Of a stretch of DNA of 15,054 nt, positions 1 through 12,758 are shown in pieces. The stretch is from a candidate division WOR-3 bacterium (lineage in GTDB: Bacteria > Hydrothermota > UBA3072). The stretch is taken from contig JBDRZZ010000033.1 of the NCBI GenBank assembly GCA_039804165.1, forward strand, positions 1 to 15,054, read 5' to 3'. How positions within the stretch are numbered: position 1 is the first letter of the stretch; each line of letters begins with the position of its first letter. The notes below the pieces were generated by a model. That model saw nothing but the letters and a program-made list of their open reading frames with translations. It searched no databases and was not told the origin of the DNA. Made by a program: the position numbers and the translations under genes.

Positions 1-3000
1 CCTAAAATAGAGTCTCTAACCTCTTTATCCCCTACTCTAATGATATTCCAATCAGTTGGGTCCAAACCTATTCCATATTCGAGGACATATTCCTTAAAAT
101 GGGAATCCTTCGCAGTTCCAATTATTGTGATTTCGTCACTCACCATTGTAGAATCAAGAGGTGATATTATCATCGCAAGAGGCGGCGTATTATCCAGTTC
201 ATAATACCTGGAATTAAACGACTCAAGATTTAAAACATTATCCCGAGCACGATAATCAACTTTATAACTCCCATCTTCGCCAGTAATCGTGAACATAACG
301 CTATCTCCTTCCATTGTCGCTGTTAGCTGTGAGCTGCCAGCTGAAAGCTCTGTAATTATGTATTCCACTTCCTTCACTCCTGAGGCAACATCACTTGATA
401 TTGGGTCTATAGCAGTTAATATAAGAGGAGTCCTGGAAGTTATTAATGTTCTACCTAAGCTGTCAGCTGGAAGCTCAAAACTCGGCTCCCCAGAAATAAG
501 CTTAGAAATCGGTGGAGTATTATCAACAGCAAAGTAAAAAGATTTCATTTCCTCTTCATTCCCTAAATTATCAATGCTCCTATAATAAAGAATATGCATT
601 CCTTCGCCAACCTTAGAAAAATCAAACGTCACTTCCTTATCGTATGAAACCCATCCAAGATCATCAATCTGATAATCAGAACTCTTCACCCCAGAACCCT
701 CTCCATCTGTAACAAGAAGAGTAATTGGTGTTAAAGAAGTCAAATAAATTAATCCAAGAGAATCACCACCTAAATAATGAGGCTCTCCAATATCCAAACT
801 CGTAACAGGAGCAGTGTTATCAAGATAAAAAGTTGTATCTTTTACATCCTCTACATTATTAACATTATCAATCGAACGATAGTAAATCTTATGTAAGCCA
901 TCCAAATCTATAACACTAAATCCCGAATCATAATCCTTAAATGGCTCATTATCAATATAATATTCAATCCTATTTAAACCAGAAGAAACTCCGTTTATTT
1001 CCGGATCTAAAGAAATTATCTCTACTTTTGTCTCCGAATTAATAAAAATTGGTGAACCAGTGATTGAATAATAAGGCTCACCAACCTTAAGAGTGCTAAA
1101 AGGCACAGTATTATCAAGCTTTAAAGAATCCTCTTTTATCTTCTCCGCATTTTCAACGTGGTCTTTTCCATAATACTCAATTTTATAAACACCATCCTCA
1201 CCAGAAATAGAAAACTCCGCCATATTTCTTTCAACCTCTTCCCACGACCCTTCATTTATCCTATAATAAATCTCCCAAATCCCAGAAGCAACACCCAAAG
1301 AGATAGGATCAAAAGAGGATATAACTATAGGAGTTTTGGAACTAATGAATAAAGAATCAAATTGAGGCTCTCCTAAAGTTCTCTTACTAATTGGAGGAGT
1401 ATTATCAACCCTTATCTCTTTTATCTTAACAACTTCTCTATTCCCGGCCCTATCAATAGAATAATACTCAACAAAATGAATCCCTTCGCCTTCAACTTTG
1501 AATTCAATGTGGTCACCGGCAGGCGGATAGCGGTTAGCAATCCATATCCCTCCATCTATCCTGTAATACAAGCTATCAACTCCAGAGATGTCATCAGTTG
1601 CCTCAAAACTTAAGGGGGTAGCAGAGGTGATGTATTGCGGTTCGCCAGAAGCGGCAAGCGGATAGCGGGGGAGGCCGATGTGCAGGGTGGTAATAGGTGG
1701 CTCACAATCAAAAGCAACAACAGTATCCTTTGGAGATTCGGCATTACCGAGATTATCCACGGAGTAATAAGAAATCACATATCTATAATGTGGTGGAGTG
1801 TATGGGATATTAAAACTACCAAGAGCTTCTGTCCATGGTTGTAAAACATCTCCCGAAATAGTAGAAACAGCATAGAAAAAACTCGCAATCCCGCATGTAT
1901 CAAGAGCCTCAATCCAAATAGGAGTCTCTGGTGAAATGTAAAGAATCCCATTAAACAACTTTTTCGGCTCCCCAAAAACAAGATAAGACAGTGGTGGAGT
2001 ATTATCCATCGTCAATTTTCTGGATTTTATTTCTTCTCTATTTCCTAATTTATCAACCGAATAATACTCAATTATATGAGTTCCTTCTTCAACCAAATTA
2101 AATTCTACACCAGTGTAGACATTCCACGTATTATCATCTATACGGTAATAAGTTGTATCCACACCACACCCTACATCGTCCGTTTTCAGAGAGAGCGCGG
2201 TCTTGGAGGAGATGTAAAGCTGTGAGCTATCAGCTGGCTCGTAGCTAGGGGTTCCGGGGATGAGGGTGGTAACCGGTGGTGTATTATCCACAAATAATTC
2301 CGTTGACTTGACTTCTTCTCTATTCCCGGCTCTATCTACCGAATAGTACTCAATAACATGGATTCCTTCGTCTCTTACTTTAAACTCTCCACCAGCATAT
2401 ACGTTCCACAAATTATCGTCAATACGATAATATGTGGAATCTACTCCCGATGTTACATTATTTTTCTCTACATCCTCTCCAGTTATTGAGAGGGGAGTTG
2501 TAGAGGTAATGTAAAGCGGAGAGCCCTCAACAAGTAGATAGTGAGGTGGACCAATGTGCAGAGTGGTTATCGGTTCCGTATTATCGATTTTAAGCCTTAC
2601 TTCAACTGGATTTAAATCACCTGTTGAAGTATTCCAGTTGTTTCCTCCCTTATCCTCAGCTCTTATTGTTAGAATATATTCTCCGTCTTCAACGTTTTCG
2701 CTCTCCCATGAGCCTTCATATACTCCGTTAATCGAATCTCCTTCAACCCTTATAATCTCATTATATGATAGACCGTCTATTCTGTATTCAACCTTTTTAA
2801 CCCCACTGACATCATCCATAACCCTCGCCTTTACTTCCACGTTCTTCGAATAATATTCATCTTCAACAGGAGATATTGTTTCCGTTATAAGAGGTGCAGT
2901 AACATCCAGTATTCTTATATTATCTATCCCTACCCCTATCTTTTCACCCCTTGCCTCCACAACAAATGAAACAAGATAATCCTTTGTAGCATAATACTTC

Positions 3001-6000
3001 CCACTTTCCATCCTTAAAGTGTCCAGGTAAGTTGAATCTATCTTTATTGAAATAGAGGTTTTTACTGTATCTTTTTCTTCTTTTGTGACCGGGTCTATAA
3101 CATTTGTTATTCCGTAGCCAATGATATCTATATTGCCTGTATTCTTCACCCATCTTGCGACATCGAAATACTCCCCCCACTCGATGCTTTCCTGAATTAC
3201 ATTTATTCCTCCCATAAGAACAACAGATTCTGATAAAGTAATCCAGAGAGAGTCTAGAGAAAGAATAGAACCATCAGCGTTATTTATAAGAATACCCTTT
3301 ATTTTGTATTCACCAGGAACTCTTGATTCTGTATTCCAGAAATCCTTTCTATTTACAATTTCATCCAGCGAAAGTCCGAATAAATGTGAATACCTTTTCA
3401 GAGTATCATTATCAGGTGAAATAACGATAATTTTAAGGGTCACTTCATTGAATAGACAATTCGGAGAATTGTTTTTCGCAATTGAATTTATCTCAACATT
3501 CTCATAGGATTTGTAGGATGATTTATTTGTAAATAAAGAAAGACTTGTGGAAATTTCAGGAATTATTTCGAAATCATCTTCGTCTTTAGCTCTGAGCCTT
3601 TCCCCTTCATTCGCTTCTCCAAGAACAGTATAAGTTCCCCAGAAGGTTCTCTGGGTATTCCAGTAAATTATAGTATCTTTTATCGCATGTGGTTCTAAAG
3701 TTATATTAAATGTCGAAATTAACTCATCTTTCTCTTTGACCTTTAAATTAACCATTAAATCTTTAGTGCTTTCTCCATTATTCTCTATTCTTGTTATTAC
3801 TCTAACACTATCATAAGCGCCATATTCTTCCTTATCAGTTGTAACTGAGAGAATAATAGGTGAAGGACCAATAATTATGGTTTTACTCATTGTGTTATTG
3901 TCTTCAGATAATTCTTCTATTAAGTTAGAAGGGTCGGCATATAATTCTATTTCGTGAGTGCCGGACCATCCATAAGTATCCCATTCTATTTCTACAGGAA
4001 CAGTCTCTCCGGTTTTAAGGCTATCATTGATAATCTCACTTCCTATTAGGCTTCCATCCGAATAGAAGTTGACCCTGAAATTAGAAATAGAAATACCTGA
4101 GTTCTCGACAACACCTGTTATTCTTACTATATCTCCTTCCTTTGGTTCTGGGGGCAAGAACTCTATGTCTCTTATCCCTAAATCAGGTAAACTCGGGAGT
4201 GTTATCTCCACAGTGGTCATCAAACGGTTATTGTTCTCATTTGATTCTTTTACACTATCTTCAGCGTCAACCCACGCCCAGATGGTATTAGTGCCGGGAT
4301 AACCTTTCGACCACCATTTGATCTCTATCGAAGTATTCTCTCCCGGATTTAAAGCCTGAACAGAACCCTCATCAATAAGTTCTCCATTCTCAGGCATTCT
4401 AAGGAAGAACTTTATCTTATTCTCCTTAGCAGGAAGTGAACCTTGATTTAGAATATCTGCTCCTACCTGTATTGTGTCTCCTTCTATAGCACTCTTGGGG
4501 AAAGGTGTTAAACTTGTTATAAGCAAGTCAGGATAAGAAACAATTATAATTCTGCGTTGAGTAACAAATTCATTCCCTGCCTTATCATAAGTCTTAAGCC
4601 TCAAAGTATAAATTCCTGCTGGAAATCCAGTAATATCAAGAGAACCGAGAACGCCATCAATAATTACTATTACCCCTTCCGAGATTAAATCCCAATTTAC
4701 TGGATTCTCGCCTTTTCCGTATTCAAGAACGAAATGCTCAAAATTAATAGCTTTTCCTTCCCAGTTGGAATCTGTAACAGTACCTATTATATTTAAAACA
4801 GAAATATCTGTAGTGATAGTGTCCCATTCGGAAGGATAGAGAATTATCCCTTTAGGTGGTATATTATCTATCTCAACAGTATCTTTTACCGAAAAACCAT
4901 GATTACTCTCTATTATATACGGATATATCCCACTCCCAATGAACCTTCCATCCCAGCTTTCCTTGTGAAAACCACTCTTCCTATTAAAAGGACCAAGGGT
5001 AGTTATATTGTTTCCAAAAATATCCAAAATATAAATGGTTATATCTGAATTCCCAGAAAGTACATACCTAATATACGTTGTATCTTTAATCCCAGGGCTT
5101 GCTTCTGGAGAAAATGGATCAGGAAATGCTCCTTCTGAAGAAAGATTAAATTCAACAATATCAACCGAAGCCCAATCAATATCGCTCATTCTCTTTGTAT
5201 CTTCAACTTTAAGACCTATTTTCCCTTTAAATGGTTTATTCCATATCCATTCACCCTTCTTTCCAAAGAAGTCATCAAAATCTCCATCACCATCAATTTC
5301 CCACTTATACGAGAGGATAGAATCGCCTACCAGAGTATCTGGGTCATAAGAAAAAGAACCATCAAGTAAGACTGGAGAATTTATAAATCCTTCATAAGGA
5401 CCTCCTGCATTCGCACGAGGAGGATGATTCCCAAGAGTCACAAAAACTATACACACATCAATGTCTGATTTTGGAGGAACGTTATCATCCCACACTCTAA
5501 GTGTAACATAGTATTTTCCTGTATCAGCCCACATATATGTTGCCTCGACACCTGTTGAGTCGAAAATACCATCATTATTAAAGTCCCATTCGTATTTCAC
5601 TATGGTTCTTGCAGTATCTTTGTGATAGGACCCAGAACCATTGAAATGAACAATATCTCTTGGTGCAACAATCTGGTCAGGTCCTGCGTCTGCTACAGGC
5701 GGTTTACCTATCACGAACGGAGTTAAAATAAGAGTTGCCCAAGCTGTGGAGAGCACCTCATTTGAATAGGTACTCCGAGGATGGGACCCATCTTTCCTTT
5801 GCGCTGAAAGTAAATAATCTGAATATTCTTCATACCAATTATGCCCTCCAATATATTCAATCGGTGGGTTTGCAATCCTACATCCTTTCATCACTGTATA
5901 CATTGCGTAGTAATTACCAAAGTTACCATTTTCCCCAGTTTTATTCCAATTTTTATCAAGATAATCTATAGCTTTTTTAATACATATCGTATCAGATGAG

Positions 6001-9000
6001 AGCCCACAGTATGAATATCCACAAATTCCTGCACCTGTTCTTGCTATATTTCCGTTATCTGGCCCAGTATATCCAAATCCGCCGTCTTCAAGTTGGGAAT
6101 ATTCGAGCCAGACCATTAATTCATCCTTCACCCAAGGCGGAGCATAAATTCCCCATTCTCTTTCTGCAGATTCAAGAGCAAGAACTGGCCATTGGGTTAC
6201 GGAATTGTCTGCTTCCTTATTAGGAGAATACCTCCAACCCCCTCTGTACCTTCCACTTGCGGAATCAGTTTGCCCAAATGCAAGATAATCCACAGCATCT
6301 ACGATTAACTCTCGCCAGGTGACTTCACTTTCATTAGGTCCATAAGGACCGGCAATATCCTCCGGGTTATGAGCTCCAATAAATCCCATCATTGCAATTG
6401 GGTGTTGGTAACCCCAGTCTATATTACAAATATTTAATCCTAAACCATCCCGATCAGAATCAGGATTTCCCCTATATTGTTCAGAAATAGCTTCATACTT
6501 CATCCCTTTAAGAATCCAATCTTCTGCCTTTTTCAAATATTCAGCATATATTTCTTTATCGAAATCTCCATTAGATGTATACCCACTATTCGCAAAAGCA
6601 AGTATTGCAATACCAGTAGGTCCAACACTATCATAATCCCCATATCTCCAATAGCCTTCTTTATCTTGAGACAAGTATAAATATCTAAGCCCATCCTCCA
6701 CTGCTGCCCCAATTTTCGTTTCCTTTGTTTCGGGTAGGACATGGATTACAGTTGTATCACTATCCCAATTCCCTTCCTCATCTTTTATTGTAAGAACTGC
6801 CTTATAATCTTTCCAAACACCTGTATAAGTATGCTTTTTGAAAATGAATTTAGAGTTACTTACCAAACCTTCCGCAATAGGAGAACCGTCTCCAAAATCC
6901 CAAGTGTAAAATAGTGTGTCAGAATAAAAAGGTTTAAAAAGAAGTGATTTCTGAGAAGGAGGAAATTTAGAATAAACTGCAGCATTTTCTCCATTTTCAT
7001 TTATTCCTACTATAGCTGTAAAAGGTCCTTTAAGACCATTATAATTAAATCTAATATTCCCATTCTCATATATAACTGCCTGAAAATTATTAGCATCTTC
7101 CCTATCAAGAGTATTATAAGAAACTCCTAACCAAGTAATAACTACTTTCTTATAAGTAGAATCCAAAACCTCTTTGTAAAAAACCTTGCCATTTTTGGGA
7201 CTCTTGTTATATTTTGCCCAAAGGGGAGCAACTGCCCATTTCGCTCTATCGGAAGGGAAAGAATCCCATACATATATCAAATTCTCATTCCCAACTAAAA
7301 AATCAAGAACACCATTTGATACTAAATCAAATCTTGTAAATGTAGTATCAAAAAGCGAAAATTTAAATGGCAACGTTACTGTCTTTAACCAATACTTTTC
7401 CTCACTATTTACTGCATAATTAAGAAATTTCCCATAATCTCCTTCCAAATAAAATCTCTCCTTTTTTATAGAATACCTTATTGGCTCATATAGAATTGAA
7501 AGCCCCTTATAGGGGGAACTCACATACTTCGTAAAAGTTATTCCATCCCCATAATTTACCCCAATATCAAATTTATAGTCGCTGTATTTTTCAAAATCTT
7601 TACAATTCATCATTATCCTTCCTGAAGAATAAAATACTATCTGGAAAGTATAAAGGTCCTGTTCTTTAGGAACATTATCTGAATTTGTAGCATACGCAGT
7701 GGTTACAACAAAAATAGTATCTTTATCTCCCTTCTTTTCAAATTTGTATATCCCCCCTCCTTTCCTATAAGTTTTCATCCCGTAATACTGAAGCACAGGA
7801 TGACAGATATAACCTCCATAACTAAGGTGAAAATTTGGTATTTCAGGAAGACCATCATACCAATTCTTATTAACAATTGAATTAAAGTAAAAGAAACCAT
7901 TAGTTACAACGTTAACTGTATCCCAGTTCCTATCATAGAAATCAAATTTAAAAGGTAATCCAAGTTTCGCCAAGCCTTTCTCGTAATTCCACTTTGAGAT
8001 TTCAACATAATCTCCATAAGCAATCCATCTGAATTCTCTATCAATAAAACTATAAGTAGAACTATTTGGTTTAAAAGTGATTGTTAAACCATCCGTAATA
8101 GGATAAGTCTTAAAATCTACCTTCACTCCATTTATTCCATCCCCTTTGTTAAGACCAACACGGGGGATCAAAGTCCCCGGTTGTGATGTGAACTTGTAAT
8201 TAAATAGTATTTCTCCTGACTCTTTTATCACAAGTTGAAAAGTATATTTTTCAGGCTTAACTCTTGATAAACTATCCCATGTAATCACACATTTTTTACC
8301 ATTTATATCCTCAGTATCATTTATCCAAACTGGTCTTTTGTAACTTACACTGAGATTACACCCAAAAGGAGAAATTACATAATCGGGATGGTCGTGCGGG
8401 AAATCTTCCTGTGGATAACTTTTATGATGCCACCAACTTGAATTGTTACCAGCCCAGAAGTCCACCCAACCATTTGTGCTTATATAAAGTGTATCAAAAG
8501 TGCTATCGTAAAAAGGAAATGAAAATTCTAATTTATGTTTTGTATAATTGTCGTCTCCATAAAGACCAGAGCTTTTGCCATAATCGCTTTCCCATTCAAA
8601 AGATTTTCTATACATAGTGTAAGAAACTCCTTTTGGGAACTCTATAGACCTCTCGCTTATTGGATGAACTGGATAAAGAGTCCCATCAACACCATCTCCT
8701 TTATTAATCCCTACAAGAGGCGAATCCGAAGAAAGAGTATTGATGCTGTAATAACTAAATCTTACCTCGTTCTTCTCAGTTAGAACAAGTTGGAAAGTGT
8801 ATGAGTTTTCAGGATGACCTTTTAAATGAGCATTTACCCAGCTTATTATAAAAACATCCCAGCTATTTTTCTTATCACTTTCATCTGAGACTTTTGTTGA
8901 AAGGTAGTAAACTCCTCCATCATCTTCAAAATAAAGGTCTTCAAGATAAGGAGCTAAAACATATTTGAAAGAAACTGAAGGGAAAGAATCACAGGAACTC

Positions 9001-12000
9001 AAAGTATAATCATTTTCATCCGAAAAACCCACATAACCATTTGTGCTTATATATACTTCGTTGAAAGTGGAACCATAAAGTTCAAAAGGAAATGGAAGGG
9101 AAACTTTTACCCATTCATCATCTCCTGAAAGACCTGTATTTCTTCCAAAATCCATCTCCCAGTGAGGTTCAACAATTTCCTTATCATAATCCCTTTCCAA
9201 CAAAGAAAGAGAAGTTTTACTTGTAGGTTTGCCCTCATAAGTCCTTCCTTCAACCCCATCCCCAAGATTTACACCGATTGTAGCATTTATTGTTGTATCT
9301 ATCTTTTCATAATTAAATCTTATATTTCCGTATTTATCAAGAGAAATCTGAAATATAAATTCCACATCTGGATTGTTTTTCGGGGAAACATTTACCCAGC
9401 TTATAATGAATTTATCACCAGAATACCAATAGTAAATTCCACTACTATCATTCATTACCAAATCGGTCCAGAAAGGTGCAATTACATATTTATCCTCAGT
9501 ATTTGGGAAACCGGAAGCATTGCTTTTACTATAATTATTCTCCGAAGAAAAACCAATAAAGCCATTTGTGCTAATATAAACTTCTAGAAATGTAGAATCA
9601 TAAAACTCAAATTCAAAAGGAAGATTCACTAAAGTATAATTATCATCTCCAGATAAACCAGTATTAGTTCCAAAATTTACCTCCCATTGCTCCTCTTTTT
9701 CTATCAGGAAGTAATTCTTCTCTCTCCAATTAGGATCATACACATTGCCCCAAACATATATTTCCCTACCTGGCCAAGTCGGATACTCGGGCATCACATT
9801 CACCCTTGGTGGATAACTACCAACAATAGGTCCTTCATTACTACTCAGTGGTCCTATCTCTTCTTTCGCAAGGTTCCCTTTTATATCTTTCGCTTCAAAT
9901 CTATAGTTAGCTTCAAGAGTTAAAGGAAGTTTTGTTAAATAAGAATATTCCTTTCCATCTCTATAATCATTATCGGAAAGGTCCACAGGGAACATTGAGA
10001 AAGAGCCTTCTTTCATTCCTCCGACTACATTATTGTAAAATCCATCTCCATCCAAATCAACCCAAACTTTTGGATAACCATCCATAGGAGGGTCATTATC
10101 AATATCTGTATAAACAATTCTATATTCAAAAATCTCATTTGTATCTCCAGTATTAGGATTAACACCATCGGTTATAAAACCATTTTCTTTTGACCAAGAA
10201 ATAATAGGTAATCTATTTCCAATCCATATTCCTCTTCCGGCGGTATTATTTTCTTTACTTGTTTCCATAATCAAATTATCAGGGTCTATCACAACAAAGA
10301 TACTGTGAGGGCCACCTCTATTAGAGCTCCAAGTAATCCTTGCCTTTCCAGAACCAAATGGAAAAATTTTAGATATAACATTACTACCAATCAGGGTTCC
10401 TCCTCCATTAGGATTCCCATCATAAAAATCAACTTTAACCAAATTTGCTGGGATATCTGAGATATTATGAATCTCCGCATTTATTTCCACAGATTCACTA
10501 ATCTCTGGATTTATTGGAAAAAAAGTAATATCAAGTGAATCAAGAGTAAGTTCTGTTATCTCAGGAAAGGTGACATATACTTCTTTATAAGCTTTATTGT
10601 TACGGTCGTTTTTTTCTACGATTTCATCATATGGGTCAGCCTTTGCATATATTCTTATTAACCCAAAAGTGTCAGGAACCCAATTTAATTTAACTTGAGC
10701 ACTGTCTTTTCCCATTAACTTCAATATATGAGAAAAACCAATAATATTCTCTTCAGTTGCTTCCTTCTTGTAAAAATTGACTCTTATTGTCTCATTAATC
10801 GATTTACTACCCCTATTATGAACCCAAACTAAAATATTTATTGTGTCTAAGAGGGTAGGATATTCAGGAAAAAGCACTATATCCTTACTTTTAATCTCAA
10901 GGTCCGGTTCAGAAGGCTTAACTTTAATACTTGCATGAGCTATATTATTTAATTTGGTAATCTCTTCTATCCGATTCTCCGGGTCTATTACAACCCATAT
11001 GTCATTATAACCCTCTTTGCCGATTGTCCCCCAATTTATATCAACTTTTTTGGAACCCCCAGGAAGAACAAAGTTTATAAAAACAGACCCAATTTGTTTT
11101 GCTCCTAAATTTGGATTCCCTTCATAAAAACTAACAGTTATTCCCTGTGCGCCTCCCTCTCCAATATTACGAATTACGGCTGAAATTTTTACCGAATCCC
11201 CCTCTTCAGGTGAAGTGGGAGTAAATGTGATATCGTTATTATTTACGGCAAGGTCTGGCGGAAATCCTGTAACATTGAATGAACGGGTTGCCGTGTTATT
11301 TGTCTCGTTCGATTCCAAAATTATATTATCAGGGTCTGCCAAAACATATAAAGTATGATTTCCCTGGGGAAGCATTGTCAAAAATCTCCCACTTACAAAT
11401 TGCCCACCGCCTATAACAGGAAAATCAAAATTTACAAGGAGGAGCCCTCCATTTTGAGGGTCTCCATCGTAAACCGCAGTTTTTACATTCTTCACACTCA
11501 TCTCTCCAGTATTATAAACAGAAAAATTAACCTGAATAGTATCTTTCTCTGTAGGTCTTATAGGTTCTATCTTTATATCCTGGGGATAAACGACTAAATC
11601 AGCTGGGGTAAATACATTTAAATGATAAACATATTCATTATCTCCCTCATTCCCTTCCCTTATTTTGTTCTCCCAATCCACAGTTCCTTTAATCTCATAT
11701 CTTCCAGAAGGCAAATTATAAGAGAAATCTACTATTGTTGAATCACCGGGAAGAAGACTATCGATTACTCCTTCCCAGAGAAGAAGAGTATCAAGAATAA
11801 ATTTAACCTTAAACCCATCCGCCTTTTCCATCCCAATGTTCTTAATAACCGCAGAAAGAGTAAAAACCTGCCCATCACCTATAGTGGAAGGATCTGTCCA
11901 GGCAGAAGAAATCACAAGATTTGGACTCATTGTAGAAAGTGCCAAAATCGCAAGAGCAGTCTCATAAGCATTATTGTTCCAACTCCCCTCACTATCCTGA

Positions 12001-12758
12001 GCAGAAAGGAGGAAGTTTTTTGTTTTTTCTATTGCTGTGAGCCGTGAGCTGTCAGCTGTAACCGGATGTTGCAGGGCCATCAAGGAAAGGGCGCTCTCAT
12101 ATATTGAAGTTGTATCCTTCCCAAAACTACCATTTGTGTTCTGTTGACTAAGAAGCCAGGAGATTCCATTTCTGATTTGGGTGCTTAAATCATATATACC
12201 ATGGAATCTTTCCAGAGAAATGAGAGTTAATGCGGTAATATAAACAGATGAACTATCATTTATATCACACCAATAATTGTCTTTTTGTTTGTTTACGATG
12301 TAATAAATAATTCTCCCAATCCTATCATAATCAGAATAATTAGTCGCATTTAAAGCACGAAGAAGAAGCGAAACATCAAGAGGATAACTCCCATAGAAAC
12401 GCAAAGCACCAAAACCTCCATCCTGATTCTGGAAAGTTAGAATAGTATCAATTAGTCCCGTCGTATCCGGGAAAAAAGGAGTTACAACTTCCAGATACCT
12501 TGAAATGTGGTCTAAGGAAGGAAGAGAAAAAGACATGAACCTCTTAAGACCAATATCAAAAATCGAATCTTCTCCATTCAGAATAAGAGCTCTTAAGACC
12601 TCTGATGTGGAAAGAAAATTATTGTATTCTTCTCCCCATGTGGAATCTGGATTTTGATTGAGTTTTAACCACTCAATCCCCTTGTTAATGGCATCATCAA
12701 CTGGAGATGCGATTAAAGTTATACAAATGAATATACAGATTAAAATCTTTCTAAACAT
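1..12758 (-). CDS. Giant multidomain secreted/cell-surface protein (3' end beyond window)
   Basis: A single reading frame runs from ATG at 12758-12756 to base 1 without a stop: 4,252 complete codons plus two bases, so the protein is larger than 4,252 residues and its C-terminus is missing. The start is fixed by an AGGAGG ribosome site 4 bases upstream and by the signal peptide MFRKILICIFICITLIAS that follows. Order of domains: alpha/alpha toroid, CARDB x5, linker domain, five nidogen-like modules, PKD-like, second toroid, PKD x2, FlgD-Ig, Ig-like, CARDB or CARDB-like x4, Ig-like segments, eight DNTPP-linked Ig-like units, then a partial Ig-like domain. Everything recognised is a beta-sandwich or toroid used for extracellular architecture and binding; no catalytic motif was seen. 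The gene starts 16 bases after the upstream gene stops, so the two are probably co-transcribed. The role is inferred to be adhesion, surface layer or matrix. Few cysteines and short in-frame palindromic elements are further features. The ORF is near certain; the function is not. Confidence 0.95.
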   Translation of the reverse strand, partial: MFRKILICIFICITLIASPVDDAINKGIEWLKLNQNPDSTWGEEYNNFLSTSEVLRALILNGEDSIFDIGLKRFMSFSLPSLDHISRYLEVVTPFFPDTTGLIDTILTFQNQDGGFGALRFYGSYPLDVSLLLRALNATNYSDYDRIGRIIYYIVNKQKDNYWCDINDSSSVYITALTLISLERFHGIYDLSTQIRNGISWLLSQQNTNGSFGKDTTSIYESALSLMALQHPVTADSSRLTAIEKTKNFLLSAQDSEGSWNNNAYETALAILALSTMSPNLVISSAWTDPSTIGDGQVFTLSAVIKNIGMEKADGFKVKFILDTLLLWEGVIDSLLPGDSTIVDFSYNLPSGRYEIKGTVDWENKIREGNEGDNEYVYHLNVFTPADLVVYPQDIKIEPIRPTEKDTIQVNFSVYNTGEMSVKNVKTAVYDGDPQNGGLLLVNFDFPVIGGGQFVSGRFLTMLPQGNHTLYVLADPDNIILESNETNNTATRSFNVTGFPPDLAVNNNDITFTPTSPEEGDSVKISAVIRNIGEGGAQGITVSFYEGNPNLGAKQIGSVFINFVLPGGSKKVDINWGTIGKEGYNDIWVVIDPENRIEEITKLNNIAHASIKVKPSEPDLEIKSKDIVLFPEYPTLLDTINILVWVHNRGSKSINETIRVNFYKKEATEENIIGFSHILKLMGKDSAQVKLNWVPDTFGLIRIYAKADPYDEIVEKNDRNNKAYKEVYVTFPEITELTLDSLDITFFPINPEISESVEINAEIHNISDIPANLVKVDFYDGNPNGGGTLIGSNVISKIFPFGSGKARITWSSNRGGPHSIFVVIDPDNLIMETSKENNTAGRGIWIGNRLPIISWSKENGFITDGVNPNTGDTNEIFEYRIVYTDIDNDPPMDGYPKVWVDLDGDGFYNNVVGGMKEGSFSMFPVDLSDNDYRDGKEYSYLTKLPLTLEANYRFEAKDIKGNLAKEEIGPLSSNEGPIVGSYPPRVNVMPEYPTWPGREIYVWGNVYDPNWREKNYFLIEKEEQWEVNFGTNTGLSGDDNYTLVNLPFEFEFYDSTFLEVYISTNGFIGFSSENNYSKSNASGFPNTEDKYVIAPFWTDLVMNDSSGIYYWYSGDKFIISWVNVSPKNNPDVEFIFQISLDKYGNIRFNYEKIDTTINATIGVNLGDGVEGRTYEGKPTSKTSLSLLERDYDKEIVEPHWEMDFGRNTGLSGDDEWVKVSLPFPFELYGSTFNEVYISTNGYVGFSDENDYTLSSCDSFPSVSFKYVLAPYLEDLYFEDDGGVYYLSTKVSDESDKKNSWDVFIISWVNAHLKGHPENSYTFQLVLTEKNEVRFSYYSINTLSSDSPLVGINKGDGVDGTLYPVHPISERSIEFPKGVSYTMYRKSFEWESDYGKSSGLYGDDNYTKHKLEFSFPFYDSTFDTLYISTNGWVDFWAGNNSSWWHHKSYPQEDFPHDHPDYVISPFGCNLSVSYKRPVWINDTEDINGKKCVITWDSLSRVKPEKYTFQLVIKESGEILFNYKFTSQPGTLIPRVGLNKGDGINGVKVDFKTYPITDGLTITFKPNSSTYSFIDREFRWIAYGDYVEISKWNYEKGLAKLGLPFKFDFYDRNWDTVNVVTNGFFYFNSIVNKNWYDGLPEIPNFHLSYGGYICHPVLQYYGMKTYRKGGGIYKFEKKGDKDTIFVVTTAYATNSDNVPKEQDLYTFQIVFYSSGRIMMNCKDFEKYSDYKFDIGVNYGDGITFTKYVSSPYKGLSILYEPIRYSIKKERFYLEGDYGKFLNYAVNSEEKYWLKTVTLPFKFSLFDTTFTRFDLVSNGVLDFLVGNENLIYVWDSFPSDRAKWAVAPLWAKYNKSPKNGKVFYKEVLDSTYKKVVITWLGVSYNTLDREDANNFQAVIYENGNIRFNYNGLKGPFTAIVGINENGENAAVYSKFPPSQKSLLFKPFYSDTLFYTWDFGDGSPIAEGLVSNSKFIFKKHTYTGVWKDYKAVLTIKDEEGNWDSDTTVIHVLPETKETKIGAAVEDGLRYLYLSQDKEGYWRYGDYDSVGPTGIAILAFANSGYTSNGDFDKEIYAEYLKKAEDWILKGMKYEAISEQYRGNPDSDRDGLGLNICNIDWGYQHPIAMMGFIGAHNPEDIAGPYGPNESEVTWRELIVDAVDYLAFGQTDSASGRYRGGWRYSPNKEADNSVTQWPVLALESAEREWGIYAPPWVKDELMVWLEYSQLEDGGFGYTGPDNGNIARTGAGICGYSYCGLSSDTICIKKAIDYLDKNWNKTGENGNFGNYYAMYTVMKGCRIANPPIEYIGGHNWYEEYSDYLLSAQRKDGSHPRSTYSNEVLSTAWATLILTPFVIGKPPVADAGPDQIVAPRDIVHFNGSGSYHKDTARTIVKYEWDFNNDGIFDSTGVEATYMWADTGKYYVTLRVWDDNVPPKSDIDVCIVFVTLGNHPPRANAGGPYEGFINSPVLLDGSFSYDPDTLVGDSILSYKWEIDGDGDFDDFFGKKGEWIWNKPFKGKIGLKVEDTKRMSDIDWASVDIVEFNLSSEGAFPDPFSPEASPGIKDTTYIRYVLSGNSDITIYILDIFGNNITTLGPFNRKSGFHKESWDGRFIGSGIYPYIIESNHGFSVKDTVEIDNIPPKGIILYPSEWDTITTDISVLNIIGTVTDSNWEGKAINFEHFVLEYGKGENPVNWDLISEGVIVIIDGVLGSLDITGFPAGIYTLRLKTYDKAGNEFVTQRRIIIVSYPDLLITSLTPFPKSAIEGDTIQVGADILNQGSLPAKENKIKFFLRMPENGELIDEGSVQALNPGENTSIEIKWWSKGYPGTNTIWAWVDAEDSVKESNENNNRLMTTVEITLPSLPDLGIRDIEFLPPEPKEGDIVRITGVVENSGISISNFRVNFYSDGSLIGSEIINDSLKTGETVPVEIEWDTYGWSGTHEIELYADPSNLIEELSEDNNTMSKTIIIGPSPIILSVTTDKEEYGAYDSVRVITRIENNGESTKDLMVNLKVKEKDELISTFNITLEPHAIKDTIIYWNTQRTFWGTYTVLGEANEGERLRAKDEDDFEIIPEISTSLSLFTNKSSYKSYENVEINSIAKNNSPNCLFNEVTLKIIVISPDNDTLKRYSHLFGLSLDEIVNRKDFWNTESRVPGEYKIKGILINNADGSILSLDSLWITLSESVVLMGGINVIQESIEWGEYFDVARWVKNTGNIDIIGYGITNVIDPVTKEEKDTVKTSISIKIDSTYLDTLRMESGKYYATKDYLVSFVVEARGEKIGVGIDNIRILDVTAPLITETISPVEDEYYSKNVEVKARVMDDVSGVKKVEYRIDGLSYNEIIRVEGDSINGVYEGSWESENVEDGEYILTIRAEDKGGNNWNTSTGDLNPVEVRLKIDNTEPITTLHIGPPHYLLVEGSPLYITSTTPLSITGEDVEKNNVTSGVDSTYYRIDDNLWNVYAGGEFKVRDEGIHVIEYYSVDRAGNREEVKSTELFVDNTPPVTTLIPGTPSYEPADSSQLYISSKTALSLKTDDVGCGVDTTYYRIDDNTWNVYTGVEFNLVEEGTHIIEYYSVDKLGNREEIKSRKLTMDNTPPLSYLVFGEPKKLFNGILYISPETPIWIEALDTCGIASFFYAVSTISGDVLQPWTEALGSFNIPYTPPHYRYVISYYSVDNLGNAESPKDTVVAFDCEPPITTLHIGLPRYPLAASGEPQYITSATPLSFEATDDISGVDSLYYRIDGGIWIANRYPPAGDHIEFKVEGEGIHFVEYYSIDRAGNREVVKIKEIRVDNTPPISKRTLGEPQFDSLFISSKTPIVISSFDPISLGVASGIWEIYYRINEGSWEEVERNMAEFSISGEDGVYKIEYYGKDHVENAEKIKEDSLKLDNTVPFSTLKVGEPYYSITGSPIFINSETKVEIISLDPEINGVSSGLNRIEYYIDNEPFKDYDSGFSVIDLDGLHKIYYRSIDNVNNVEDVKDTTFYLDNTAPVTSLDIGEPHYLGGDSLGLIYLTSLTPITLLVTDGEGSGVKSSDYQIDDLGWVSYDKEVTFDFSKVGEGMHILYYRSIDNLGNEEEMKSFYFAVDNTPPISKLISGEPSFELPADSLGRTLITSRTPLILTAIDPISSDVASGVKEVEYIITELSAGSSQLTATMEGDSVMFTITGEDGSYKVDYRARDNVLNLESFNSRYYELDNTPPLAMIISPLDSTMVSDEITIIGTAKDSHFKEYVLEYGIGLDPTDWNIIRVGDKEVRDSIL
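3..194 (-). other. Partial Ig-like domain (second GTxxDxxF..LEYGxG copy) at window edge
   Basis: Residues 4189-4252 read DNTPPLAMIISPLDSTM, IIGTAKDSHFKEYVLEYGIG and DPTDWNII, matching residues about 2634-2690 in layout and motif. The domain is cut by the window edge, so at least tens of residues of it, and probably a further C-terminal domain, lie outside. Confidence 0.65.
320..350 (-). repeat. In-frame palindromic element, family A copy 1
   Basis: The minus strand carries CAGCTGGCAGCTCACAGCT (325-343), read as SAGSSQLT. It sits in the loop after the 'YYRID..W' strand of Ig-like unit 8 (loop 2). Compared with unit 5 the segment is about six residues longer and the usual Trp is lost. Confidence 0.7.
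456..476 (-). repeat. In-frame palindromic element, family A copy 2 (short)
   Basis: The minus strand carries GAGCTTCCAGCTGACAGCTT, which keeps the left 12 bases of the family core and then diverges. It is read as ELPADSL in the loop after 'GEPSF' (loop 1) of Ig-like unit 8. The matching loop in unit 5 is about five or six residues shorter. Confidence 0.6.
1517..1533 (-). repeat. In-frame GC-rich element, family B copy 1
   Basis: The minus strand carries CCGCTATCCGCCTGCCG, read as RYPPA, in loop 2 of Ig-like unit 4 (after DGGIWIAN). It matches copy 2 at 16 of 17 bases in the same codon phase. Confidence 0.6.
1652..1668 (-). repeat. In-frame GC-rich element, family B copy 2
   Basis: The minus strand carries CCGCTATCCGCTTGCCG, read as RYPLA, in loop 1 of Ig-like unit 4 (after HIGLP). 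The flanks (about 1640-1690) are also unusually GC-rich for this gene. Confidence 0.6.
2218..2246 (-). repeat. In-frame palindromic element, family A copy 3
   Basis: The minus strand carries CAGCTGATAGCTCACAGCT (2218-2236), preceded by a further AGCT. It is read as PADSSQL in loop 1 of Ig-like unit 2. The core differs from copy 1 at two adjacent positions. The surrounding unit is locally richer in G+C than the rest of the array. Confidence 0.7.
2586..2900 (-). other. Ig-like domain preceding the DNTPP array
   Basis: Residues 3287-3391 contain LITETISPVEDEYYSKNVEV, DDVSGVKKVEYRIDG and EDGEYILTIRAEDKGGNN. This is the common 'P..g..v.g.v.v.a...D..SGV..VeY.iDG...' bacterial Ig-like (Big) type. 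It is similar enough to the units that follow to be their more distant relative. Confidence 0.6.
2901..3227 (-). other. Unassigned beta-rich segment of the giant protein
   Basis: Residues 3178-3286 (VVLMGGINVIQESIEWGEY through GVGIDNIRILDV) form an extended beta-rich segment. The closing phrase IGVGIDNIRILDVTAP looks like the edge of a jelly-roll carbohydrate-binding-like fold (such folds often end 'vDNI.i'). I cannot assign it firmly. Confidence 0.4.
3228..4532 (-). repeat. CARDB-like Ig domains (block 2: two clear, two diverged)
   Basis: Units begin near residues 2743, 2858, 2967 and 3070. The first two are clear CARDB: PDLLITSLTPFPKSAIEGD ending VKESNENNN, and PDLGIRDIEFLPPEPKEGD ending DPSNLIEELSEDNNTMS. 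The last two open with a different signature (SVTTDKEEYGAYDSVRV and SLFTNKSSYKSYENVEI), closer to macroglobulin-type Ig domains that start 'l.t.k..Y..ge.v'. They are probably stalk or adhesive domains, as in block 1. Confidence 0.7.
4539..4859 (-). other. Ig-like domain of the GTxxDxxF..LEYGxG type
   Basis: Residues 2634-2740 contain IIGTVTDSNWEG, FVLEYGKGENPVNWDLI and an IYTLRLKTYDKAGNE closing strand. The same type reappears at residues 4189-4252 at the window edge. I recognise the pattern from surface proteins of uncultured bacteria but cannot give a family name. Confidence 0.6.
4866..5138 (-). other. FlgD-type Ig-like domain in an internal position
   Basis: Residues 2541-2631 read PDPFSPEASPG, then a YIRYVLSGNSDITIYILDIFGN strand pair, then a SWDGRFIGSGIYPYIIES end. 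This is the FlgD Ig-like pattern (NPF.P ... v.I.d..G ... WDG....G.Y.Y). In secreted FCB-group proteins this domain normally ends the protein or forms part of a C-terminal sorting region. Here more than 1,600 residues follow it. Confidence 0.75.
5148..5702 (-). other. Two consecutive PKD domains
   Basis: The first (residues about 2353-2441) opens with PPVADAGPDQIV, has NGSGSYHKD and YEWDFNNDGIFD, and closes with DTGKYYVTLRVWDD. The second (about 2445-2537) opens with HPPRANAGGPYEGF, has LDGSFSYDPD and KWEIDGDGDFDD, and is less regular at the end. These are standard PKD landmarks. Both contain acidic loops that could bind calcium. Confidence 0.9.
5709..6722 (-). other. Alpha/alpha-toroid domain 2
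   Basis: Residues about 2013-2350 repeat the prenyltransferase/cyclase-like hairpin pattern: LYLSQDKEGYWRYG (about 2027-2040), GPTGIAILAFANSG, FGQTDSASGRYRGGWRYSP, VTQWPVLALESAE, YSQLEDGGFGYTGP (about 2220-2233) and LLSAQRKDGSHP (about 2316-2327) with LSTAWATLIL. A D-x-D-x-D-G loop (NPDSDRDGLGLN, about 2098-2109) suggests bound calcium. Neither the cyclase acid motif nor a thioester motif is present. It is longer than toroid 1 and only distantly similar to it in sequence, so it looks like an old duplication or a separately acquired module. Confidence 0.75.
6732..6926 (-). other. PKD-like domain
   Basis: Residues 1945-2009 contain YTWDFGDGSP followed by KHTYTGVWKDYKAVLTIKDE, the hallmark WDFGDG and H-x-Y-x-x-x-G-x-Y elements of a PKD beta-sandwich. 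It lies directly between the nidogen-like array and the second toroid and is probably a rigid spacer. Confidence 0.75.
6927..9692 (-). repeat. Array of five nidogen-like 'STNG' beta modules
   Basis: Five tandem units of about 175-190 residues: residues 1023-1196, 1197-1384, 1385-1572, 1573-1763 and 1764-1944. Shared elements in order are a W-x-x-[DN]-[FY]-G opening (WEVNFGTNTGLSGDD, WEMDFGRNTGLSGDD, WESDYGKSSGLYGDD), LPF.F.FYDSTF, VYISTNGFIGF, an APFW.DL-type segment, a SWVNV strand, FQ..L...G.IRFNY, and GVN.GDG near the end. This resembles the NIDO-type module (FPFYG...V.VSSNG..F...APFWADV). Units 1-3 are close to each other. Units 4 and 5 have drifted (VTNGFFYF, LVSNGVLDF) and lost the WE..FG opening. 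At DNA level the VYISTNG segments near 8474, 9041 and 9566 remain nearly identical. The family name is an inference; the repeat structure is seen directly. Confidence 0.8.
9693..10223 (-). other. Linker domain with EF-hand-like calcium loop
   Basis: Residues 846-1022 read as a beta-rich domain opening with LPIISWSKENGFITDG and containing the acidic loop DLDGDGFYNN (about 901-910), which fits a D-x-D-x-D-G calcium-binding loop, and a closing NYRFEAKDIKGN strand. Similar 'sW.....G...DGv.P..G...' segments occur in archaeal and bacterial surface proteins, but I cannot name the family. A Pro-rich stretch (SYPPRVNVMPEYPTWPG) joins it to the next array. Confidence 0.5.
10224..11924 (-). repeat. Five tandem CARDB-like Ig domains (block 1)
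   Basis: Five units of about 105-115 residues begin near residues 279, 386, 500, 618 and 734. Each opens with PDL or a similar start plus a 'P..P..GD.V.....I.N.G' stretch (for example PEEGDSVKISAVIRNIG) and closes with a 'VDPDN.I.E....NN.A' stretch (DPDNIILESNETNNTA, DPENRIEEITKLNN, DPYDEIVEKNDRNN, DPDNLIMETSKENNTA). These are the signatures of CARDB, the cell-adhesion-related domain of bacteria and archaea. Unit 1 is the most diverged. They probably act as an extended spacer or adhesive stalk after the toroid. Confidence 0.85.
11934..12701 (-). other. Alpha/alpha-toroid domain 1 (prenyltransferase/squalene-cyclase-like repeats)
   Basis: Residues about 20-275 consist of helical hairpins, each ending in a QW-like turn: QNQDGGFG (about 110-117), QQNTNGSFG (about 205-213) and QDSEGSW (about 254-260), with helices such as TSEVLRALIL and YETALAILAL between them. 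This is the pattern of the six-hairpin toroid shared by squalene/oxidosqualene cyclases, prenyltransferase beta subunits and the thioester domains of alpha-2-macroglobulins. The acidic DxDD motif of cyclases and the CxEQ thioester motif are both absent, so it probably acts as a scaffold or binding domain. One palindromic element (family A) lies in an inter-helix loop at 12034-12061. Confidence 0.75.
12034..12061 (-). repeat. In-frame palindromic element, family A copy 4
   Basis: The minus strand carries CAGCTGACAGCTCACGGCT (12040-12058), read as TADSSRL. It lies in toroid 1 between the helix ending SLMALQHP and the next helix AIEKTKNFLL. It is about 9.8 kb from copy 3 and in an unrelated domain, so common descent of the Ig-like units cannot explain it. 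Confidence 0.7.
12702..12758 (-). other. Signal peptide of the giant protein
   Basis: Residues 1-19 have a basic start (FRK), a hydrophobic core (ILICIFICITLIA) and a polar exit (SPVDD), typical of Sec export. There is no lipobox: no Cys follows an L-[AS]-[GA] triplet at the end of the core, so a lipoprotein is unlikely. Cleavage is probably around residues 17-20. Confidence 0.8.

Follow-up and report, generated by a model that had tools for sequence, protein, structure and literature searches.

Intergenic-type heptamer repeats carried in frame in loops of a giant, probably exported protein of a WOR-3 bacterium

Four short arrays of a degenerate tandem heptamer lie in frame inside one giant gene of a candidate division WOR-3 bacterium, in a 15,054-nucleotide stretch of DNA that we refer to as the window. 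With a probability of roughly 0.8, we consider these arrays to be heptamer simple-sequence repeats of a widespread and usually intergenic kind that were captured in tolerant loops of giant, probably exported proteins. According to the open reading frame listing, the host gene occupies positions 3 to 12758 on the minus strand and encodes 4252 amino acids, with its 3' end cut by the end of the contig. Pfam assigns to the product an N-terminal alpha/alpha toroid (squalene-cyclase-like), CARDB, NIDO and PKD domains and about nine Ig-like repeat units, and the hydrophobic N-terminus together with these domain types indicates that the protein is probably exported. The gene has a GC content of 36.6%, and the heptamer arrays inside it have 50-57%. 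This is a concrete and checkable case in which short tandem repeats of the intergenic type are found in frame in loops that vary while the surrounding protein is kept.

The 19-mer CAGCTGRYAGCTCACRGCT occurs with 0 mismatches at 325-343, 2218-2236 and 12040-12058, each time on the minus strand, which is the coding strand, and in the same codon phase [(12758 - end) mod 3 = 1], where it is read as SAGSSQL, PADSSQL and TADSSRL. No match to it was found in 200 dinucleotide shuffles, even when up to 3 mismatches were allowed. A preliminary description of the window, made from its letters, had reported three 19-base cores on one strand and in one phase with peptides of the form (S/P/T)A(G/D)SSxL, and these observations are exact. 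The arrays extend past the 19-mer: TRF (period 7) and a profile scan of the window with the 7-nt unit A-G-C-Y-G-W-N delimit them as 319-349, 456-475, 2218-2236 and 12034-12061, all on the minus strand. The repeating unit, set head to tail in 2.7-4.4 copies per array in the window, is the degenerate 7-mer AGC(T/C)GT(S) (AGCYGTS; antisense GCTSACRGCT). Array 1 (319-349; 37.3 bits, 4.4 units) is read as ELSAGSSQLTA and falls in a hairpin loop of Ig-like unit 9; a second loop of that unit holds array 2 (456-475; 22.3 bits, 2.9 units), which is weak or degenerate and is read as LPADSL. Array 3 (2218-2236; 25.0 bits, 2.7 units) gives ADSSQL and belongs to Ig-like unit 2, and array 4 (12034-12061; 39.1 bits, TRF period 7, 4 units) gives TADSSRLTA in the N-terminal helical domain, with a helix on either side of it. 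When the gene was shuffled among synonymous codons (n = 300), the mean number of arrays was 0.10 at >=22 bits and 0.02 at >=25 bits, with none at >=30 bits, and a first-order Markov control for the array scan gave practically no matches. Because these controls seldom or never reach the scores of the arrays, the similarity between the arrays lies at the level of DNA. The shortened copy named in the preliminary description is present as array 2, but it is weak by itself, with 0.10 such matches expected per synonymous shuffle of the gene.

The arrays occupy loops of the protein. In an AlphaFold2 model, array 1 corresponds to loop 60-65 between strands 50-59 and 66-72 (pLDDT 82 in the block, mean 92 overall), and in an alignment of the Ig-like units it falls where unit 9 has 6 aa more than most of its sister units. 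The same alignment shows an unchanged length for array 3 relative to Ig-like unit 1. Array 4 lies in an all-helical domain according to both Pfam (SQHop_cyclase_C/Prenyltrans) and the structure model, where AlphaFold2 places it in the loop between helices 199-209 and 217-233, with a pLDDT of 80 in the best model and of 37 to 63 in the other four. The location of this copy in an unrelated helical domain had been recognized from the letters, together with the argument that descent of repeat units does not explain the pattern. Arrays 2 and 3, however, occupy one and the same loop in each of two Ig-like units that are related, and there the sequences may reflect repeat descent.

The codon phase of the arrays follows from the unit itself. 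Since 7 mod 3 = 1, three units (21 nt) encode one heptapeptide whichever frame of a strand is read, and here this heptapeptide is the hydrophilic QLTADSS. Wherever a unit in the seven coding arrays examined places T at the first codon position, the following base is C or T and not G or A, and G at that unit position is found only in other codon phases. The shared codon phase of the cores is thus explained by stop avoidance, with C or T kept where TGA or TAA would form in frame, rather than by a coding mobile element, of which the phase had been taken as a sign. Stop avoidance explains the phase but proves no history, because any open frame partly requires it. The pattern of "same strand, same codon phase" in a heptamer repeat is therefore to be expected from the avoidance of stop codons, and no dedicated coding mobile element has to be invoked for it. 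All six coding arrays of the window's own genome, and the one of a relative of the same genus, have GCTSAC (QLTADSS) rather than AGCYGTS (SCELSAV) on their coding strand. Both strands can be open, and it is our guess that selection against cysteine and hydrophobic residues lies behind the choice.

The window's own genome (G000, 1.96 Mb) was compared with that of the same-genus relative (G001), with two genomes of the same family (G002 and G004) and with further genomes. G000 contains only seven arrays: the four in the window gene, a further two in another giant gene (C8:2026-13041, 3671 aa) and one in the 5' leader of C8:644, downstream of a promoter-like sequence and upstream of the ribosome-binding site. 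Six of the seven are coding and in frame, in two giant genes, and the reversed-pattern control over G000 gave no matches. The possibility of a single giant gene across C33 and C8 is rejected, since the C8 gene begins with a start of its own and no sequence is common to the contig ends. The preliminary description had named few copies elsewhere in the genome as an outcome that would speak against its mobile element, and the three additional arrays in 1.96 Mb come close to this outcome.

Matches occur in 22 of 100 relatives, and longer matches in 17 of 147 genomes of the phylum, with a patchy distribution even inside a genus. About 20 of the 21 arrays in G001 are found outside long ORFs. In G045, G082 and G092, which represent another genus, there are dozens of arrays with 3-16 units, all of them intergenic, outside ORFs >170 aa and among mosaics of other short repeats. 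At orthologous intergenic sites the unit number turns over by whole blocks of units: between G045 and G082, one site has 54 vs 110 nt with 97% identical flanks and another 54 vs 98 nt with 88% identity, and at a third the array is unchanged (31 vs 31 nt). For the 24-base pattern, the matches listed include Acidobacteria, Planctomycetota, Cyanobacteria (Moorena, Nostocales), Nitrospirae, Spirochaetes, Pseudoalteromonas, WOR-3 and others; among the matches listed, the lower-GC loci have 52 arrays outside and 11 inside ORFs >=300 aa, in both orientations, and the high-GC matches (Streptomyces and others) may have arisen by chance in coding sequence. Judged by these sequence matches, the heptamer family is not restricted to one lineage and extends over many phyla.

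In G082, an identical 45-nt heptamer string with flanks ...TTTAAGGG / CCTAGGGGGGTT is found at three loci that differ in their outer flanks (L104, L106, L109), and the string with these flanks is near-identical at L122, L123 and L127 of G045. Taken together, TTTAAGGG, the 45-nt string and CCTAGGGGGGTT form a longer composite dispersed element in the two genomes. Because the identical string recurs at several loci, copying of longer blocks happens in these relatives. As a separate observation, 34 of 70 intergenic arrays (G001, G045, G082; L104-L160), when read on the AGCYGTS strand, have the -35-like sequence TTGAC in the 60 nt downstream of them, and 9 of 70 have it on the other side, the background being 6-10% per 60-mer in DNA that is not intergenic alone. 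In these three genomes the arrays are often followed closely by a promoter-like sequence, in one orientation. With the reversed control pattern (GTCGA heptamer-like), G002 and G004 each gave about 100 matches at 3 mismatches, which suggests another heptamer-type repeat family in those genomes.

The loops that carry arrays differ between orthologues. The C8 gene has orthologues in relatives, and those of G001, G004_C150 and G004_C497 were compared. Site 1 of this gene is a short loop in G004_C150, carries the heptamer in G000, is occupied by another long stretch in G004_C497, and in G001 holds a heptamer array together with a GTTGAGT-type repeat. Site 2 has no insert in G004_C150, and in G001 it contains, all in frame, a heptamer fragment, a CACAAAG-type repeat (SSHKATKNTE) and an AAATCC-type repeat (NPNPQILNPN), the last two being types that are also present elsewhere in G001. 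CACARAG pairs number 295 in G001 vs 2 in G000, and this difference of about 100-fold within one genus provides a natural comparison for the spread or purging of repeats. In a comparison of orthologues with and without the element, as the preliminary description had proposed, the G004 orthologues are without inserts (G004_C150 at both sites), but the loops are too diverged to give a clean junction, and the orthologue comparison yielded no clean pair of empty and filled sites with a target duplication. The loop at 12034 is about 4 aa longer than in the G004 orthologue, which is less than the coding length of the array, so that replacement and not addition is needed there.

A paralogue in the same genome, C46, varies in the same way, its DNA being nearly identical on both sides of the 12034 array with a different 7/32-nt repeat (GGTATAG type) inside. 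The segment (G000:C46:449-1300, L311/L054, against window positions 11889-12200) comprises roughly 300 nt that are almost identical in paralogues otherwise about 50% identical. A near-identical segment with different repeats in its middle looks as if recent gene conversion had taken place. A dispersed family behind the GGTATAG repeat was rejected, since only C46 and one marginal C15 site carry it. We interpret the host loops as variable sites at which short tandem repeats from several families are taken up. The earlier claim of an element in proteins stands in this form, as a DNA-level family with many copies in relatives that is found in frame in loops differing between orthologues.

We envisage that the arrays are normally intergenic, gaining and losing whole units, and that a few would become fixed inside protein loops. 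They would enter a site by insertion or replacement and be altered afterwards through slippage or recombination. Survival in frame would be possible where loops tolerate change in both length and sequence, where any frame gives a hydrophilic heptapeptide and where stops are avoided, and coding copies would persist since dropping a 7-nt unit breaks the reading frame. A wider scheme is conceivable, although we would sooner doubt it than adopt it, in which intergenic short tandem repeats of several unrelated families land in the loops of giant exported proteins in this lineage. The repeats would be copied into the loops, maintained in frame and exchanged, gene conversion between paralogues being one route, and so form a continuing source of new loop sequence; the coding copies would then outlast intergenic purging because a 7-nt loss is a frameshift.

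The preliminary description had instead proposed a small mobile palindromic element like those of Rickettsia. A discrete element of this or of the REPIN kind would be moved by an enzyme (a transposase or other) and insert in frame. The recurrence of the 45-nt string with common flanks and different outer flanks at several G082 and G045 loci would fit such an element, as would presence and absence at orthologous loops, but the arrays do not have its form. Those in G000 have at most about 19 nt in common, they differ in length, and among them we found no terminal inverted repeats, fixed length or common ends; arrays in general differ in unit order and length, the longest elsewhere reaching about 16 units. 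A strong hairpin is rejected, the single-strand folds being weak (-2.6 to -9.3 kcal/mol, z -0.2 to -2.6). The inverted pairs AGCTG/CAGCT are present as had been described, but they are a by-product of the tandem heptamer, because AGCT is self-complementary and CAGCTG arises whenever the variable base fits. With so few arrays in G000 and a turnover of unit number like that of simple repeats, we regard such an element as improbable. There is a slimmer chance that each array grew up independently in its place, by slippage on short seeds that contain AGCT, and without exchange among sites. The variation in unit order and length between arrays would agree with this, and heptamers are over-represented as simple repeats in many bacteria (PMC4692102), but the same consensus heptamer appears at sites that are unrelated and across many genomes, identical 45-mers exist at several loci in relatives, and the arrays are far GC-richer than the gene. 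Very improbable, and rejected as the source of the pattern, is a protein motif (S/P/T)A(G/D)SSxL conserved by selection with the DNA likeness as a by-product, since the alike peptides at all three sites and the position of all sites in loops of exported-type domains are outweighed by the failure of synonymous-codon shuffles of the same protein to give the DNA pattern, by unrelated residues at these sites in the paralogue and orthologues, and by the absence of the motif from the sister Ig units.

A literature search for the letters of the repeat returned no relevant paper. The captured simple-sequence repeats that we favor were compared with known systems by their properties. Heptamer direct repeats of the unit TAACTGA (TCAGTTA) are known from Beggiatoaceae, Cyanobacteria and Bacteroidetes, some of them inside ORFs (MacGregor 2015, PMC4679880). 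Similar to the arrays described here, these are tandem 7-mers with a patchy distribution, mostly intergenic and with few copies within ORFs, as in the relatives G001, G045, G082 and G092 though not in G000, where six of seven arrays are coding, and they give an open heptapeptide on the reverse reading (LSVISYQ there; SCQLSAV or QLTADSS here); Moorena/Moorea, Nostocales and Pseudoalteromonas are matched in both cases, and the units AGTTATC and AGCTGTC are two transitions apart. The TAACTGA repeats differ in unit and lineage, their coding copies are mostly at protein ends whereas ours are in internal loops of giant proteins, and many are located just upstream of start codons, for which a role in translation was proposed; a comparison of coding copies between orthologues is added in the present study. 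The cyanobacterial STRR and the GGGAATC/GGGGAYT heptamers of Xanthomonas and Nostoc (PMC4692102) are likewise dispersed heptameric tandem arrays, mainly intergenic, whose arrays at the same site vary in length and sequence between related species, but the unit here is another sequence that is not G-rich, and no quadruplex is expected. Rickettsia palindromic elements (PMC2229807) are also small repeated DNA found in frame in protein genes and between genes, tolerated rather than clearly useful. However, they are 105-146 bp long, with terminal inverted repeats and a long stem-loop, in conserved proteins, whereas the present arrays are tandem heptamers of 19-68 nt without fixed ends in variable loops. 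REP/REPIN palindromes are imperfect palindromes of 20-40 bp, often in inverted pairs, unlike direct tandem heptamers without a strong hairpin. On the best reading of these sequence comparisons, the arrays belong with the known heptamer repeats, closest to TAACTGA/TCAGTTA, and the likeness to Rickettsia elements put forward in the preliminary description would be one of outcome only.
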